From Betaproteobacteria bacterium (GTDB taxonomy: Bacteria > Pseudomonadota > Gammaproteobacteria > Burkholderiales > SG8-41): a stretch of DNA of 43,573 nt. The stretch covers positions 1 through 43,573 of the forward strand of contig CANKUB010000027.1 of NCBI GenBank assembly GCA_947486575.1. Direction: 5' to 3'. The position numbers and the translations under genes are program-made. Below the pieces are notes generated by a model. It was given only the letters and a program-made list of their open reading frames with translations. It was not told the DNA's origin and searched no databases. Below, piece after piece: positions 19,383 through 28,678 of the stretch. The number at the start of each line of letters is the position of its first letter. Position 1 is the first letter of the stretch.

Positions 19383-21941
19383 ATGTCAAAACAACTAATT
19401 ATCGCGGAAAAGCCCTCAGTGGCCAGCGATATTGCGCGCGTATTGGGCGGCTTCAAGCGCCACGACGATTTTTTTGAGAGCGACGATTTTGTGCTGTCCT
19501 CCGCTGTCGGCCACCTGGTACAGATTGCCGTGCCGGATGAGTTTGAAGTCAAGCGCGGCAAATGGTCGTTTGCCAACCTGCCGGTGATTCCGCCGCACTT
19601 TGATCTGCTGCCGATTGAGAAATCCGAGGCGCGGTTGAAGCTTCTGACCAAGCTCCTCAAACGTAAAGATGTCACGGGCGTCATCAACGCCTGCGACGCG
19701 GGCCGCGAGGGCGAACTGATTTTTCGCTACATCGCCAGTCACGCGGGCAGCAAAAAACCGGTGCAGCGTTTGTGGCTGCAATCGATGACGGCGGGTTCGA
19801 TCAAAGAAGGTTTCAAACACCTGCGCAGCGACGACGAAATGCTGCCGTTGGCCGACGCGGCCATTTGCCGCTCGGAAGCCGACTGGCTGGTCGGCATAAA
19901 CGGCACGCGCGCGATGACCGCATTCAACTCCAAAAGCGGAGGCTTTCACAAAACCCCGGTGGGCCGCGTGCAAACGCCAACGCTGGCGATTCTTGTAGAG
20001 CGCGAAGAAAAAATCAAACGCTTCGTGCCCAAAGATTATTGGGAAGTTCACGGCACCTTCGGCGTCACTGCTGGTGAGTACACCGGACGCTGGATTGACG
20101 AAAATTTCGCCAAAGCGAAAAAAGACGCCAAGGAAAACGAAGGCGATCCAGATCTACGCGCCGAGCGTCTGTGGGATGCCAATCGCGCCGCAGCGATCAA
20201 AGCCAAATGCGAAGGCAAGCCCGGCGAGATCGAAGAAGAAAGCAAACCCACAACGCAAGCGTCGCCGCTGTTGTTCGACTTGACGAGTTTGCAGCGCGCC
20301 GCCAACGGACGGTTTGGTTTTTCAGCGCGCACTACGCTGTCACTCGCGCAATCTTTGTACGAAAAGCACAAAGTGCTGACGTATCCGCGCACGGATGCGC
20401 GCGCACTGCCCGAAGATTATCTCGATACGGTGAAAGAAACACTGAAGGTATTATCCGATTCGGAATACGCTCCTTTTGCCAAAAAAATATTGAAACAAGG
20501 CTGGGTCAAACCCACCAAGCGCATTTTCAATAACGCAAAAATTTCCGACCACTTTGCGATTATCCCCACCGGACAGCCGCCCAAAGCGCTGAACGAAATC
20601 GAAACCAAGTTATACGACTTGGTGGTGCGCCAGTTTCTCGCGGTGTTCTACCCCAGCGCGGAATACATGGTGACCACGCGCATCACGCGCGTCGAGCAGG
20701 AGGCCTTCAAGAGCGAAGGCAAAGTGCTGGTCAACGCTGGCTGGCTGGAAGTGCATGGCAAAGCTGCGGCAGGCGATGATGAATCGCCCAATCTGGTAGC
20801 GGTGAAAAAAGGCGAAAAAGCCAAGACTGAAAAAATTGATGTGCTCGCCACACAAACCAAACCGCCCGCACGCTTTAACGAAGCCACGCTGCTGTCCGCT
20901 ATGGAAGGCGCTGGCAAGTTGGTGGAAGACGAAGAGCTGCGCGACGCGATGAAAGAGCGCGGCCTTGGCACGCCAGCCACGCGCGCCGTCACCATCGAAA
21001 AGTTAATCGCCGAAGAATACCTGCTGCGACTCGGTCGCGAACTGCAGGCCACACCCAAGGCGTTTGCGCTGATTACGCTGCTGCGTGGCCTGGAAATCCC
21101 TGAGCTCGCTTCGCCCGAAATGACCGGCGAATGGGAATACAAGTTAAAGCAAATGGAGCAGGGCAAGTTAAAACGCGACACCTTCATGCGCGAGATTGGC
21201 AAGATGACGCGCCACATTGTCGAGCGCGCCAAAGCGCACGACAGCGAGTCCGTGCCCGGCGACTACGTTACGCTACAGGCCAAATGCCCCAGTTGCGGCG
21301 GCACGATCAAAGAGAACTACAAAAAATTCCAGTGCGAGAAGTGCGAATTCTCGCTGTGGCGGATCCTCGCGGGGCGGCAGTTTGAATCGACGGAAATCGA
21401 CGAGCTGATTGCCAAAAAGAGTATCGGTCCACTGCAAGGTTTTCGTTCGCGTCTGGGGCGCCCGTTTGCCGCCAACATCAAGTTAAACAGCGAATTCAAA
21501 CTCGAATTTGATTTCGGCCAGGCCAACGAAGACGCCGAGCCCGTCGACTTCACCGGTCAGGAATCCATCGGTGTATGCCCCAAATGTGGCGGCAACGTCT
21601 ACTCACATGGCATGGCTTACCTGTGTGAGAAAGCCGCCGCGCAACCGCGCACCTGCGATTTCCGCACTGGCAAAATCATTCTTCAACGCAACATCGAGCC
21701 AGAGCAGGTCACCAAGTTGCTGAAAGACGGCAAGACGGATTTGCTGCATAAATTCATCAGTAAAAAGGGGCGGCCATTCTCCGCGTTTCTGGTGCGTGGC
21801 AGCGACGGCAAAGTGTCGTTTGAGTTTGCGCCGCGTGAGGCCAAGGTTACGAAAGCCGGGGCGAAGTCAGTAACGAAAGATGCGGACGAAAAACCAGTGG
21901 CTAAAAAGAAGGCTGCACCTCGGGCGCGTAAGGCGGCGTAA
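19383..21941 (+). CDS. topB: DNA topoisomerase III (type IA)
   Basis: 852 residues, longer than E. coli TopB (~650) because of C-terminal zinc-type repeats and a basic tail. The Toprim domain has IIAEKPSVASDIARVLGGF and the metal motif DAGREGE (105-111). PVGRVQTPTLAILVERE follows, and then the catalytic tyrosine Tyr334 in TYPRTDARALPEDY. C-terminal Topo-type zinc modules: CPSCGGTIKENYKKFQCEKCEF at ~633-654 and CPKCGGNVYS...CDF further on. The tail is Lys/Ala-rich (KPVAKKKAAPRARKAA). It relaxes and decatenates DNA by single-strand passage. This long C-terminal architecture is common in betaproteobacterial TopB. Confidence 0.95.
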   Translation: MSKQLIIAEKPSVASDIARVLGGFKRHDDFFESDDFVLSSAVGHLVQIAVPDEFEVKRGKWSFANLPVIPPHFDLLPIEKSEARLKLLTKLLKRKDVTGVINACDAGREGELIFRYIASHAGSKKPVQRLWLQSMTAGSIKEGFKHLRSDDEMLPLADAAICRSEADWLVGINGTRAMTAFNSKSGGFHKTPVGRVQTPTLAILVEREEKIKRFVPKDYWEVHGTFGVTAGEYTGRWIDENFAKAKKDAKENEGDPDLRAERLWDANRAAAIKAKCEGKPGEIEEESKPTTQASPLLFDLTSLQRAANGRFGFSARTTLSLAQSLYEKHKVLTYPRTDARALPEDYLDTVKETLKVLSDSEYAPFAKKILKQGWVKPTKRIFNNAKISDHFAIIPTGQPPKALNEIETKLYDLVVRQFLAVFYPSAEYMVTTRITRVEQEAFKSEGKVLVNAGWLEVHGKAAAGDDESPNLVAVKKGEKAKTEKIDVLATQTKPPARFNEATLLSAMEGAGKLVEDEELRDAMKERGLGTPATRAVTIEKLIAEEYLLRLGRELQATPKAFALITLLRGLEIPELASPEMTGEWEYKLKQMEQGKLKRDTFMREIGKMTRHIVERAKAHDSESVPGDYVTLQAKCPSCGGTIKENYKKFQCEKCEFSLWRILAGRQFESTEIDELIAKKSIGPLQGFRSRLGRPFAANIKLNSEFKLEFDFGQANEDAEPVDFTGQESIGVCPKCGGNVYSHGMAYLCEKAAAQPRTCDFRTGKIILQRNIEPEQVTKLLKDGKTDLLHKFISKKGRPFSAFLVRGSDGKVSFEFAPREAKVTKAGAKSVTKDADEKPVAKKKAAPRARKAA

Positions 21942-21943
21942 GC

Positions 21944-22939
21944 CTAATCCGTCGCCTTAATCCCCGCCGCCTTCACCGCCTTACCCCACCGCTCGACTTC
22001 GGCTTTCATGAATTTGCCGAAAGCCTCCGGTGCCATCGGCGTGGGGTCGTAGCCGCGATCGCTCAATTGTTTGGCGGCGTCGCTGCCACTCAATATTTTG
22101 GTGAACACGCTATTGAGTTGCGTGATGATCGGTTGTGGCGTATTCGCGGGGGCCATCAAACCGTACCAGCCGCTGATCGCGAAACCTTTGTAGCCGGATT
22201 CATCCAGCGTCGGCAATTCAGGCAGTTCACGTGTGCGCTTAAGGGTGGTGACGGCCAGCGCGCGGATTTTGCCTGAGCGAATTTGCGGAATGGCTGCGCC
22301 AGGGCCGGAGAACAGGGTTTGCACTTCGCCACCGAGTGCGGCTGTCATTGCGGGGCCGCTGCCGCGATACGGTATGTGGGTGATTTTAACTTTGGCGGTT
22401 TGGTAAAACACTTCTTGTGCCAGATGCGATGTGACGTTGCCGGAGCCGAAGTTGAACCCGTTGGGTTTGGCCTGCGCAAGTTTGATGAAATCCGCCAGTG
22501 TTTTGGCGGGCACCGACGGATGCACCGAAACAATATACGGCTGCTCGATCAGCATGGTGATCGGTGCGAAATCGCGGCTGACATCGAACGGCACCTGTGC
22601 GTACATCCACGGCGCAACAGTCGTCGCGCCAATTTCGGCGACGATTAAAGTGTAGCCGTCGGGCGTGGCTTTTGCGCCGATGGCGGTGCCGCCGGTGCCT
22701 TGCGCGCCGCCGCGATTATCGATCAGCAGTTGTTGGCCGAGTGCCGCCGTGACCGCTGGTTGCAGGATGCGCGAAACCAGATCGGTGCCGCCGCCGGGTG
22801 GGAACGGCACGATCAGGCGGATGGGCTTGTTGGGGTAGGCGCCAGCCGCGCCACCGGCTTTTTCGGCGGCCAATAACGATTGCGATGACAGCGCCACGCT
22901 TGCGGCCAAGGCGGCCAGCACACTAAACCACTTGTTCAT
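21944..22939 (-). CDS. Bug/TctC family tripartite tricarboxylate receptor
   Basis: 331 residues. The start MNKWFSVLAALAASVALSS at 22939 has GGGAGC as ribosome-binding site and a clear signal peptide cleaved near LLAAEK. Signatures: YPNKPIRLIVPFPPGGGTD, IDNRGGAQGTGG, ATPDGYTL, THIPYRGSGPA and GWYGLMAPANTP. It is a periplasmic solute receptor; its ligand is unknown and no TctAB membrane genes are nearby. It ends two bases from the topB stop (convergent) and is divergent from the HTH-aminotransferase gene, with an A+T-rich 185-bp shared upstream region. Confidence 0.92.
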   Translation of the reverse strand: MNKWFSVLAALAASVALSSQSLLAAEKAGGAAGAYPNKPIRLIVPFPPGGGTDLVSRILQPAVTAALGQQLLIDNRGGAQGTGGTAIGAKATPDGYTLIVAEIGATTVAPWMYAQVPFDVSRDFAPITMLIEQPYIVSVHPSVPAKTLADFIKLAQAKPNGFNFGSGNVTSHLAQEVFYQTAKVKITHIPYRGSGPAMTAALGGEVQTLFSGPGAAIPQIRSGKIRALAVTTLKRTRELPELPTLDESGYKGFAISGWYGLMAPANTPQPIITQLNSVFTKILSGSDAAKQLSDRGYDPTPMAPEAFGKFMKAEVERWGKAVKAAGIKATD

Positions 22940-23088
22940 AAAAGCTCCCAGGTTGGATCGTGGCGCGAAGTTAACACGGCTTTGCCTTGTGTAAAAGCCG
23001 CCAGCCCAAAACAATCAATGTGGTGCAATAAATAAAAAATCTTTAAAAACATATAGTTAATAAATACACTTAAAATGAAAATCTCAAA

Positions 23089-23117
23089 TTGTCAAACTAA
23101 TTTTGCCATGTTATTAT
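23089..23117 (+). promoter_or_regulatory. Sigma-70 promoter giving an apparently leaderless HTH-aminotransferase mRNA
   Basis: TTGTCA (23089-23094), a 17-base spacer, and TATTAT (23112-23117). This is five of six matches to both hexamers with ideal spacing. Transcription would start about seven bases after the -10, at ~23124-23125, which is the A of the start codon at 23125. No ribosome-binding site precedes that ATG. The predicted mRNA is therefore leaderless, as for phage lambda cI from PRM. Confidence 0.7.
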
Positions 23118-23124
23118 TACACCC

Positions 23125-24651
23125 ATGAATTGCGCAGAACGCCTTGTAGAACTTTTCGGTAGCCAGGCCGAAGTTGCCCGCCGCTTTAGTTTGGATCGCG
23201 CGGTGGTTAACAATTGGGTGAAGTCCGGCTACGTACCGGCGCGCTGGGCAATGGAAGTAGAGCAAGTCACCAACGGTGAAGTCACTGCCGCTGAAATTTT
23301 GAATGACGCAACAGCACGCAAACCGATCCGGCTGAAATCGCGGCCCGACGGCGAAAATCTTTACGCATTGAACCAATCCAACTCTGGGAGCGACACCATG
23401 AGCAACATCTATTTACCTGCCAAACGCATCAGCTCGTTCCATCCGCCGCAGCGCACCTTGCTCGGCCCCGGCCCGACGGAGATTCATCCGCGCGTGCTGA
23501 CCACCATGAGCCAGCCCGCCATCGGTTATCTTGATCCGGTTTTTGTGGACATGATGGAAGAGTTGAAATCACTGCTGCGCTATGTGTATCAAACCAAAAA
23601 TCCGCTGACGTTCCCGATCTCCGGCCCTGGCTCGGTGGGCATGGAATTTTGTTTTGTGAACATGGTTGCGCCCGGCGACAAAGTGATTGTGTGCCGCAAC
23701 GGCGTGTTCGGCGGCCGCATGATTGAAAATGTTGAGCGCTGCGGCGCAACGGCAATTGTGGTTGAAGACAAATGGGGCGAGCCGGTTGATCCGCAAAAAC
23801 TGGAAGATGCGCTGAAAGCGAACCCGGATGTGCGGCTGGTGGCGTTTGTGCACGCCGAGACTTCCACCGGCGTGTTGTCGGATGCGAAAACGCTGGTAGA
23901 AATAGCCCATAAATATAACGCGCTGACAATTGTGGATGCCGTGACGTCGCTTGGCGGTGTTGAAGTTCGCGTCGATGACTGGAAATTTGACGCGGTGTAT
24001 TCCGCCAGCCAGAAATGCCTGTCTTGCACGCCGGGTTTGTCGCCGGTGTCGATCAGCGAGCGCGTGGTCGATTTCGTCAAAGGCCGCAAAGACAAAATAC
24101 ATAGCTGGTTCATGGACATGAATCTGCTGCTGGGCTATTGGGGCGCGACCACTCGCACTTATCACCACACTGCACCGACCAACTCGCTGTTCGGCCTGCA
24201 TGAAGCGCTGCTGCTGATCCGTGAAGAAGGCCTGGAAAACTGCTGGGCGCGCCACAAGCGCCACCACATCGCGTTGAAGGCCGGCCTCGAAGCGATGGGC
24301 CTTAAATTTCTGGTAGACCCGAAGTACCAAGTACCGGAAATGAATGCCGTGTTTTGCGCGCCGGGTGTGGACGAAGCCAAAGTGCGCAAGACGCTGCTCG
24401 ACGAATTCGGCCTGGAAATCGGCGCGGGCCTGGGGCCGCTGGCAGGCAAAATCTGGCGCTTTGGTTTGATGGGTTACTCGTGCCGCCCCGACAACGTGAT
24501 GCTGTGCCTGTCGGCGCTGGGTTCAGTGCTGGAAGACATGGGTTACGCCGTGCATGTGGGCGATGCAGAATCTGCTGCACATGGTGCGTATGCGGCGATG
24601 CACGCCACTGAGGCTGCGGCCAAGAAGCGCAAAACCGCCAAAGCTGCCTGA
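23125..24651 (+). CDS. YdaS/Cro-type HTH domain fused to class V (alanine-glyoxylate-type) aminotransferase
   Basis: 508 codons with no internal stop. Residues 1-~62 are a YdaS/Cro-like helix-turn-helix (LFGSQAEVARRFSLDRAVVN, then NWVKSGYVPARWAMEVEQVT), the type found in phage repressors and antitoxins. A polar linker (~63-91) leads to a complete class V aminotransferase: LLGPGPTEIHPRV, FPISGPGSVGMEF, VDAVTSLGGV (Asp271, PLP ring) and PLP lysine Lys297 in SASQKCLSCTPGLSP. The C-terminus is Lys/Ala-rich. The enzyme probably transaminates small amino acids to glyoxylate-type acceptors. ATG 23398 (residue 92) has its own ribosome-binding site (GGGAG, seven-base spacing) and would give a normal 417-residue enzyme. 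Two products, repressor-enzyme and enzyme, are thus possible from one ORF. Alternatively, two genes became joined by loss of the first stop. It abuts the convergent TfoX gene with no gap. Confidence 0.85.
   Translation: MNCAERLVELFGSQAEVARRFSLDRAVVNNWVKSGYVPARWAMEVEQVTNGEVTAAEILNDATARKPIRLKSRPDGENLYALNQSNSGSDTMSNIYLPAKRISSFHPPQRTLLGPGPTEIHPRVLTTMSQPAIGYLDPVFVDMMEELKSLLRYVYQTKNPLTFPISGPGSVGMEFCFVNMVAPGDKVIVCRNGVFGGRMIENVERCGATAIVVEDKWGEPVDPQKLEDALKANPDVRLVAFVHAETSTGVLSDAKTLVEIAHKYNALTIVDAVTSLGGVEVRVDDWKFDAVYSASQKCLSCTPGLSPVSISERVVDFVKGRKDKIHSWFMDMNLLLGYWGATTRTYHHTAPTNSLFGLHEALLLIREEGLENCWARHKRHHIALKAGLEAMGLKFLVDPKYQVPEMNAVFCAPGVDEAKVRKTLLDEFGLEIGAGLGPLAGKIWRFGLMGYSCRPDNVMLCLSALGSVLEDMGYAVHVGDAESAAHGAYAAMHATEAAAKKRKTAKAA
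23386..23400 (+). promoter_or_regulatory. Internal ribosome-binding site and ATG for the free aminotransferase
   Basis: GGGAG at 23386-23390 lies seven bases before ATG 23398, in frame with the long ORF. It begins MSNIYLPAKRISSF, where the aminotransferase homology starts. This decides where a stand-alone enzyme would begin, and is stronger than the leaderless context at 23125. Confidence 0.7.
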
Positions 24652-25059
24652 TTATTTGGCAGGTGTTCTGATGGCCGGCCGCGAAGATTTTTTCTTCGCA
24701 GCCGGTTTCTTTTTGGTGGCCGCTTTTTTCGCATGCGCTCGCAGGGTAGCCTCAAGCGCCCGCCGCGCCCACGGCAACATCAAATGTGGCGCATCCATTG
24801 CATCACCGGGTGCGCGCCGATAGTTCATGGTCATGTCTTTGCCGTCTTTGCTGTAAACAAACGGCGCGCAGTCTTCTGCATCGAACGCAGCGCGCGTGAC
24901 TTCATCTGCTTTCAGGTAAAGCTCGTCGTCAACGACAATCCCCATGAACAAGCCATCAATATAAACGCCGTGGCCGCCGAACATGCGCTTTGTGACGACA
25001 TGTCCCGCAGGCGCCAGCAGTTCGGCTACGTGATCGATAAAATCGCTGGTGCTGGGCAT
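24652..25059 (-). CDS. TfoX N-terminal domain protein
   Basis: 135 residues. Residues ~5-100 match the TfoX_N fold: FIDHVAELLAPAGHVVTKRMFGGHGVYIDG, then LYLKADE and FVYSKDGKDMTMNYRRAP. The C-terminal TfoX domain is absent, as is normal for single-domain versions. The last ~30 residues are a Lys/Ala/Pro-rich, histone-H1-like tail (KKPAAKKKSSRP). Full-length TfoX/Sxy regulates competence genes; single-domain relatives have no firm role, so I give no gene symbol. The ATG overlaps the mgtE stop by one base (TGATG), so they are co-transcribed. The gene abuts the aminotransferase stop with zero bases between them. Confidence 0.88.
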   Translation of the reverse strand: MPSTSDFIDHVAELLAPAGHVVTKRMFGGHGVYIDGLFMGIVVDDELYLKADEVTRAAFDAEDCAPFVYSKDGKDMTMNYRRAPGDAMDAPHLMLPWARRALEATLRAHAKKAATKKKPAAKKKSSRPAIRTPAK

Positions 25060-27534: not shown

Positions 27535-27644
27535 TGGGTTCCCATGGAGGGTGTGGGCTGTCATATTGTTTACACCAGCAGCAGAACAAGATTTTACGCA
27601 TGTTTTTCCCTGCCAACGGTGTTACTCAAATCAGGAGGTCTCAA

Positions 27645-28678
27645 TTGAACTTCGATGCCAGCAGCAAACGCCTAATATCCTCGGCCACATTTAAGCGGGT
27701 TTTATCGACCATCAGTTTTATCGCGGCCACCTTGGGTTATACGGGTGCGCAAGCTGCTGAACCGGCCGCTTCGACAGACTCAGGACAGGCGTGGCCAACC
27801 AAGCCCGTCAGGGTGGTGGTTACCGCCGCGGCCGGCATCCCCGATTTACTCGCGCGTGCCATTGGCGAAAAATTGGCGCAATACAACGGCCAGCCGTTCG
27901 TGGTCGACAGCCGGCCCGGCGCCTCCGGCAATCTGGCCGCAGGCATCGTCGCCCGCGCCAATCCCGATGGTTACCACGTGTTGTTTACGCCCGGTAGCGT
28001 ATTGACGATGAACCCGAGCCTCTATAAAGAGATGCTCTTCGACGCGGAATCCTTTGCGCCGGTGTCGTTGCTTGTGGACACGGCGGTGTTACTGGTCGTG
28101 CATGCCAAGAATCCCGCAAAGAATCTCGGCGAGCTCATTGCAGCGGCTAAGCGTGAGCCGGGGAAGATGAATTTTTCTTCGCCCGGTGCGGGCAGTTCGC
28201 TGCATCTGACGACCGAGCTGTTCCAGCGCGTTGCGGGCGTCACCGTTCAACACATTGCTTACAAAGGCCCCGAGTATGTGATTGCGGTGATGTCAGGGCA
28301 GGCCACCGGCATGTTCGTAACCCGCCGGCCGTGATACCGTAGATCAAAGCCGGCACACTACGGGCGCTGGCGGTAGCGGGTGCTAAACGGGTTCCGCAGT
28401 TGCCCGATGTGCCCACCACCGCCGAGGCTGGGCTGGCCGGCCTGGACGTTTCGTCCTGGTTCGGGACCGTAGTTCCCGCCAAGACGCCACGCCAAGTGGT
28501 TACACAGTTGAGCACGCAGATTGCAAAGGCGATGCGCGAGCCAGATGTGCAGCAGCGGCTGATGGATTTAGGCGTGCGCCCGATAGGCAGCAATCCCGAG
28601 GAGTTCGGCGAGTTCCTGAAAAAGGACAGGGTCAAGTGGGATGGCGTGATTCGCGCCGCGAACATACGGCTTGATTGA
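27645..28678 (+). pseudogene. Bug/TctC family receptor, inactivated by frameshift and nonsense mutation
   Basis: The likely start is TTG 27645 behind AGGAGG (27633-27638, six-base spacing). The N-terminal signal peptide and WPTKPVRVVVTAAAG, VDSRPGASGNLAAG, ANPDGYHVLF and HIAYKGPEYVIAVMSGQA are intact. At ~28318 one base is missing, and the frame stops at 28334. Downstream the correct frame resumes one base over, giving NPPAVIP, then TAG (28340-28342) where family members have CAG, then IKAGTLRALAVAG and the normal C-terminus to 28678. There are thus two independent lesions. An intact ancestor would have about 344 residues. It was probably an operon with the VOC gene 29 bp downstream, under the divergent LysR. 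Confidence 0.9.

Follow-up and report, generated by a model that had tools for sequence, protein, structure and literature searches.

In regulators of the MocR/GabR type, which form a subfamily of GntR proteins, a DNA-binding domain some 60 residues long stands at the N-terminus and is connected by a linker to a PLP-dependent enzyme domain of fold type I (PMC6677901, PMC4944035); some MocR clusters also hold a minority of Aminotran_5 matches (PMC6677901). BzdR is a helix-turn-helix (HTH) protein fused to a shikimate-kinase-like domain; it is reported to control benzoate-degradation genes, and, according to the same study, losing the kinase activity was essential and transcription factors are held to have arisen from enzymes that acquired DNA-binding domains (PMC3602430). 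In the window, by which we mean the whole analysed stretch of 43,573 nucleotides, an enzyme and a DNA-binding domain are likewise joined in one gene product, and, as in MocR/GabR, an N-terminal DNA-binding domain is followed by a linker and a PLP enzyme domain of fold type I. NadR also unites an HTH with NAD enzymes in one chain, the enzyme being other than that of the fusion described here. To our knowledge, intermediates that keep catalysis have seldom been described. No published description of the fusion was found in the open-access literature, most subscription papers lying outside its coverage.

The preliminary description, which was made from the sequence letters, had proposed that a phage-type HTH is fused in frame to a class V aminotransferase, in a manner similar in concept to MocR but with another HTH and another enzyme class, and the Pfam results bear out both points. 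The ORF runs from ATG to TGA with zero internal stops (Table 1) and joins a Cro/YdaS-type HTH and a complete class V aminotransferase in one chain. Residues 6-62 match PF15943 (YdaS) with 45 bits, or 49.2 bits when the N-terminal piece is taken alone, at a cut-off of 30, and residues 141-435 match PF00266 (Aminotran_5) with 80.5 bits. The PF00155 model is also above its cut-off of 19.7 in this protein, at 26.9 bits vs. 80.5 for PF00266, and the P22_Cro model gives the HTH 23-27 bits, which is below its cut-off of 30.2. Among the Pfam matches of the protein (E up to 1), a GntR match is absent and the YdaS and Cro models match instead. On this evidence, the fusion is not a MocR protein, as it has neither a GntR-type winged HTH nor an enzyme domain closest to class I/II: its HTH is of the Cro/YdaS type, whereas that of MocR is a GntR winged HTH, and its best enzyme match is Aminotran_5, whereas that of MocR is Aminotran_1_2. 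Unlike MocR, the fusion also has a conserved internal start for a predicted free enzyme. When compared with the YdaS-YdaT module, the rest of the chain beyond the HTH is aminotransferase, and the "toxin" label of PF15943 is not to be read as a functional assignment here. The enzyme scores far under the cut-offs of the NCBIfam equivalogs BhcA and PhnW.

Table 1. Features of the fusion gene and its surroundings (positions in the window)
Feature	Positions	Strand	Basis or remarks
21-bp dyad, putative operator TTGTCAAACTAATTTTGCCAT	23089..23109	+	axis 23099; in 101/101 unique fusion loci
Sigma-70-type promoter (predicted)	23089..23117	+	-35 TTGTCA 23089-23094, 17-nt spacer with TG, -10 TATTAT 23112-23117
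Full-length HTH-aminotransferase, 508 aa	23125..24651	+	ORF; open frames of relatives
Cro/YdaS-type HTH domain, residues 1-65, five predicted helices	23125..23319	+	PF15943; model like Xfaso 1 Cro 3bd1
Linker	23320..23385	+	basic stretch, roughly RKPxRLKSRPDG, that is conserved, followed by residues 79-87, which vary; dN/dS
Internal Shine-Dalgarno-like GGGAG	23386..23390	+	codon conservation
Predicted short product, class V aminotransferase, 417 aa	23398..24651	+	Met92 in 90/90 and 33/33
Predicted PLP lysine K297 (SASQKCL)	24013..24015	+	invariant in 33/33; aligns with SQK of 1vjo
Possible terminator: hairpin with a U-rich stretch behind the stop codon	24670..24714	+	overlaps the end of the convergent gene

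The sequence passes the family cut-off of the Cro/YdaS type and carries the predicted lysine and cofactor residues of class V. Residues K297, D271, Q296, YHHT 346-349, and R445, which we take to have catalytic or cofactor roles in this enzyme, are invariant in 33/33 aligned sequences. The nearest solved enzyme is the alanine-glyoxylate aminotransferase 1vjo, homologous to the fusion over residues 104-469, followed by PucG 3isl; unlike in the fusion, the HTH part has no match in those chains. Modelled alone, the HTH is predicted to have a five-helix, Cro-like fold (pLDDT 75.8), the nearest to which is that of Xfaso 1 Cro 3bd1 (Foldseek E 4e-4, TM 0.84-0.85 by target). All three PDB chains found by the structure search at E <= 0.001 are those of 3bd1, which the HTH sequence profile finds as well (E 2e-5), and the solved YdaS 8c7k reaches just E 0.33. 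In phage Cro, as predicted here, an HTH of this fold goes with a palindromic site over a promoter; however, Cro is a free small protein, and the HTH of the fusion is a part of a host enzyme. The AlphaFold2 model of the full chain was poor (pLDDT 62) and was discarded for the enzyme and the domain arrangement.

The fusion is widely kept among the relatives of the source genome. In a search of 100 relatives, 85 had some match, and the fusion was present in 13/13 other genomes of the same genus, in 37/46 other genomes of the family (in three of the 37 it is truncated or divided at contig ends), and in a single genome from each of another five families (G064, G069, G071, G088, and G098), i.e., in 6 of the 41 families sampled. 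The same six families were recovered in a sample of 300 genomes of the order, 37 of which had the HTH; the open frame was of at least 506 aa in 36 of them and cut by the sequence end in one, seven of the 37 genomes being judged by frame length alone. When named genomes were scanned with the HTH profile, 148 relatives were obtained, and in the best 80 of these the frame continues through the linker into the enzyme in 80/80, two of them having been read by eye outside the script pattern (L112, which lies at the end of a contig, and L140, in which a residue differs); 78 of the 80 are titled MAG. The full set of fusion loci comprised 165, or 101 unique ones after the removal of copies (an earlier set comprised 55, including the window). 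A stop between the HTH and the enzyme, which the preliminary description had named as a refuting result, was found in none of the 100 unique loci that reach the enzyme, and the remaining one (L176, from genome G213) breaks off with its sequence after 83 residues. The HTH frame of G213 (94 aa), which continues to the sequence end without a stop, was the sole short HTH frame of the order sample, and we rejected it as a candidate for an unfused HTH relative. In G052 and G022, one TGA each was flagged in the aligned stretch, yet the open frames are of 512 and 509 aa. As the fusion is possibly of few origins, these locus counts do not represent independent events.

In a class-level sample of 369 genomes, the HTH was matched in the window's own genome alone, and therefore the fusion seems to be confined to one bacterial order. 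None of the 548 matching records of a plasmid collection reaches 60% identity, and among the 20 matches listed, 19 start no earlier than residue 99 and one starts at residue 56. A search of the source genome for another YdaS-type HTH gave one weak match, below the cut-off. This genome also encodes a distant class V paralogue of 32% identity near a contig end (G000:C133:12201-12824), and many relatives likewise have paralogues with about this identity. Several metagenome bins titled Bordetella parapertussis or Chitinophaga pinensis (L077, L080, L086-L089, L125, and others) carry a fusion like those of uncultured Burkholderiales, and their titles look wrong.

Selection on the fusion was assessed in 90 nearly full-length unique loci, a set without truncated loci and without L179, whose Arg codon CGG before the ATG did not fit the pattern of the ribosome-binding site (RBS). 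The dN/dS values obtained from 700 random pairs by a simple counting method are 0.116 (HTH), 0.172 (residues 63-78), 0.315 (linker residues 79-87), and 0.126 (enzyme), and they are rough, since synonymous sites are near saturation and the counting is simple. Judged from these comparisons of related sequences, the fusion is real and selected. One could imagine that the enzyme part has degenerated to a mere sensor, for which BzdR provides a reported precedent (PMC3602430). However, the fusion, unlike BzdR as described there, keeps its active-site residues, and the only dyad found is at its own promoter. The invariance of the residues named above as catalytic, the low dN/dS of the enzyme, and the retention of the RBS for a free enzyme make such degeneration very improbable.

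The promoter of the fusion gene contains the dyad TTGTCAAAnTnATTTTGnCA in 101/101 unique fusion loci, at a distance of 13-219 nt from the ATG. Sequences upstream of the fusion agree with TTGTCAAAATAATTTTGTCATG at 14-22 of 22 positions (14 in one locus, 16 in five, and at least 17 in 95; n = 101), while only 0.3% of Markov-resampled upstream regions (n = 2020) reach 16 matches and 0.1% reach 17. Bases 2-7 of the dyad are invariant in the 101 loci, and bases 15 and 17 are almost invariant. About the central axis, the pairing is 0.747 vs. 0.17-0.44 at the other axes tried, the weak pairs being 1/21, 4/18, and 9/13 (in 0.17, 0.36, and 0.50 of loci, respectively). The left arm of the dyad contains the -35 hexamer and the right arm lies inside the spacer, with the TG and the TAnnnT -10 element next to it; TG and TAnnnT are kept across the 101 loci. 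The spacer of plain promoters is not usually conserved. A promoter scan of 22940-24760 on both strands gave one promoter-like match, which alone is no evidence, since shuffled sequences give 1.2 on average.

The dyad goes with the HTH. In enzyme-only orthologues, among which L002 (a paralogue), L069 (a fusion cut at its start), and L070 (from genome G014) were not counted, the best dyad score is 10-15 of 22, which is at chance level in 12/12; the weakest fusion dyad (L184, 14 of 22) is no better than the best of these scores (L064, 15). Genome G014, without the HTH, is also without the dyad (score 13). With at most one mismatch allowed, exactly one dyad is present in 48 of the 60 family genomes and none in 12, and the reversed-pattern control gave one match in the same 60 genomes. 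All 48 single dyads are at the fusion, 46 of them directly upstream by coordinates and two (G031 and G717) by reading: that of G031 is on another contig, which bears the N-terminus missing from its fusion, and that of G717 precedes MNCAERLV. The 12 genomes without a match include two in which the fusion has a more diverged dyad (G020 and G029), nine without a complete fusion, and G716. In the source genome, the fusion dyad is the only match with zero mismatches. The other four need three mismatches and are no commoner than those of the reversed control (8), and a wider regulon built on them was rejected. The link between dyad and HTH is correlative, and the dyad might belong to an unrelated host regulator, the HTH acting elsewhere or just aiding dimerisation; yet dyad and HTH occur together in the 101 fusion loci and are both missing in the 12 enzyme-only loci and G014, and the dyad occurs once per genome, at the fusion promoter, in most family genomes, which renders an unrelated regulator quite unlikely. 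The self-regulation put forward in the preliminary description is strongly suggested by a putative operator that overlaps the promoter, co-occurs with the HTH, and is found only at the fusion gene. Its further idea, that bound PLP or substrate adjusts the DNA binding, drew support from none of the results.

The start of the long form has a leader that differs among the loci. The end of the dyad and the first ATG are 13-17 nt apart in 38 of the 101 loci, among them that of the window, and the transcript is therefore expected to start at or beside this ATG. A Shine-Dalgarno (SD) sequence before it was found in 0/38 of these short-leader loci, and in 11 of the other 63, which have a longer leader. 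In the window, the first ATG follows the end of the -10 element at a distance of 7 nt, and for this reason the mRNA that gives the long form is probably leaderless there, a reading that rests on the consensus promoter and fits 38/101 loci. The lambda cI message is an example of a leaderless repressor message. At the other end of the gene, the RNA fold of 24646-24720 has a z of -3.1, and a scan for consensus terminators around the fusion gene found none.

The second start predicted within the gene, the ATG of codon 92, is preceded by GGGAG. This codon is ATG in 90/90 loci, as well as in L179, which was left out for its RBS, and Met92 is present in 33/33 aligned sequences. Of 100 anchored loci, 99 have an SD-like sequence in front of it and one has CGGAG, compared with an SD-like sequence at 20 of 1500 other in-frame ATGs taken as a control. 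In alignment column 88, Gly is present in 88 loci and always encoded by GGG (79) or GGA (9), the two codons that make up 16.6% of the 3659 other Gly codons of the gene, and the next residue, where Ser, is encoded by AGT or AGC in 70/70. Synonymous divergence of codons 88-91 (0.363) is the lowest among the windows listed, compared with 0.52 for the whole enzyme and 0.61-0.71 for the neighbouring parts, single enzyme windows also being low (0.40-0.43). Part of the window's internal RBS lies in the paired region of a weak hairpin (-6.3 kcal/mol) that is no stronger than those of shuffled sequences. Enzyme-only orthologues have an ATG, their likely start, at the position of the internal start, one of them (L061) with nearly the same site, GGGAGACACC-ATG. 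They thus appear to start at the same place, and the internal site was probably inherited, which would suit the view that ATG and RBS are remnants of an ancestral start in an autoregulated fusion whose only product in quantity is that of 508 aa. However, a remnant would be expected to decay, yet the RBS codons keep GGG/GGA and AGY while linker residues 79-87 vary, and two loci in which Gly has changed to Arg (AGG) still keep AGGAG. We consider a single-product gene unlikely on these grounds. The conservation of the internal start and RBS at the nucleotide level makes it very likely that the 417-aa free enzyme, the possibility of which was raised in the preliminary description, is made as well.

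On an enzyme tree of 53 rows (41 fusions and 12 enzyme-only forms) rooted at midpoint, most enzyme-only forms lie outside the fusions, and the fusion/enzyme-only label needs three changes; one gain and two losses of the HTH are possible. The enzyme-only gene L055 (G081) is nested among fusions with weak support (82/70) and may have lost its HTH. In the family member G014 (L070, G014:C6:41008-46251), there is no HTH match, the enzyme frame is broken, and ttcA adjoins it, which is either gene decay or an assembly error. Matches to PHROG repressors are all that points to a phage origin of the HTH. The neighbourhood of the fusion varies and includes TtcA, pteridine reductase, MetF, and adenosylhomocysteinase (NCBIfam), MgtE below the cut-off, and a Bug-type receptor assigned by eye; it is at best a weak hint at one-carbon metabolism. 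Two genes near the fusion resemble, by eye, Bug/TctC-type solute receptors (21944-22945, minus strand, and 27600-28334, plus strand); the former has no NCBIfam match, and its relative lies divergently beside the fusion in 29 loci. Lysine/alanine-rich tails end three neighbours, namely a topoisomerase-like gene and a TfoX-like one (both by eye) and the fusion (21900-21941, 24616-24648, and 24652-24720).

We consider it probable that the fusion gene encodes an autorepressing metabolic enzyme in two products, a long HTH-enzyme and a short enzyme. The long product, a Cro-type HTH joined to an aminotransferase of the alanine-glyoxylate type, would bind as a dimer to the 21-bp dyad over the -35 element and spacer of its own promoter and thereby block transcription, and the short product, translated from codon 92 by means of the conserved RBS, would be the ordinary working enzyme. 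The long form is expected to be less abundant than the short one. As class V aminotransferases form dimers, long and short chains may mix, in which case the total enzyme, and possibly its ligand state too, would determine the available quantity of paired HTH. The HTH could also activate rather than repress. More tentatively, and with appreciably less confidence than in autorepression itself, one may picture an enzyme-repressor mid-way to a regulator, in which a long form made sparingly from a leaderless message and a plentiful short form would build mixed dimers, and the amount of enzyme or its ligand would titrate the HTH at a single operator, as an enzyme rheostat.

Results of our analysis present the fusion as a conserved case in which intact active-site residues are combined with a single predicted operator at the gene's own promoter and with preservation of the start of a free enzyme. 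It may serve as a small system for direct tests of enzyme dosage, ligand sensing, and DNA binding.
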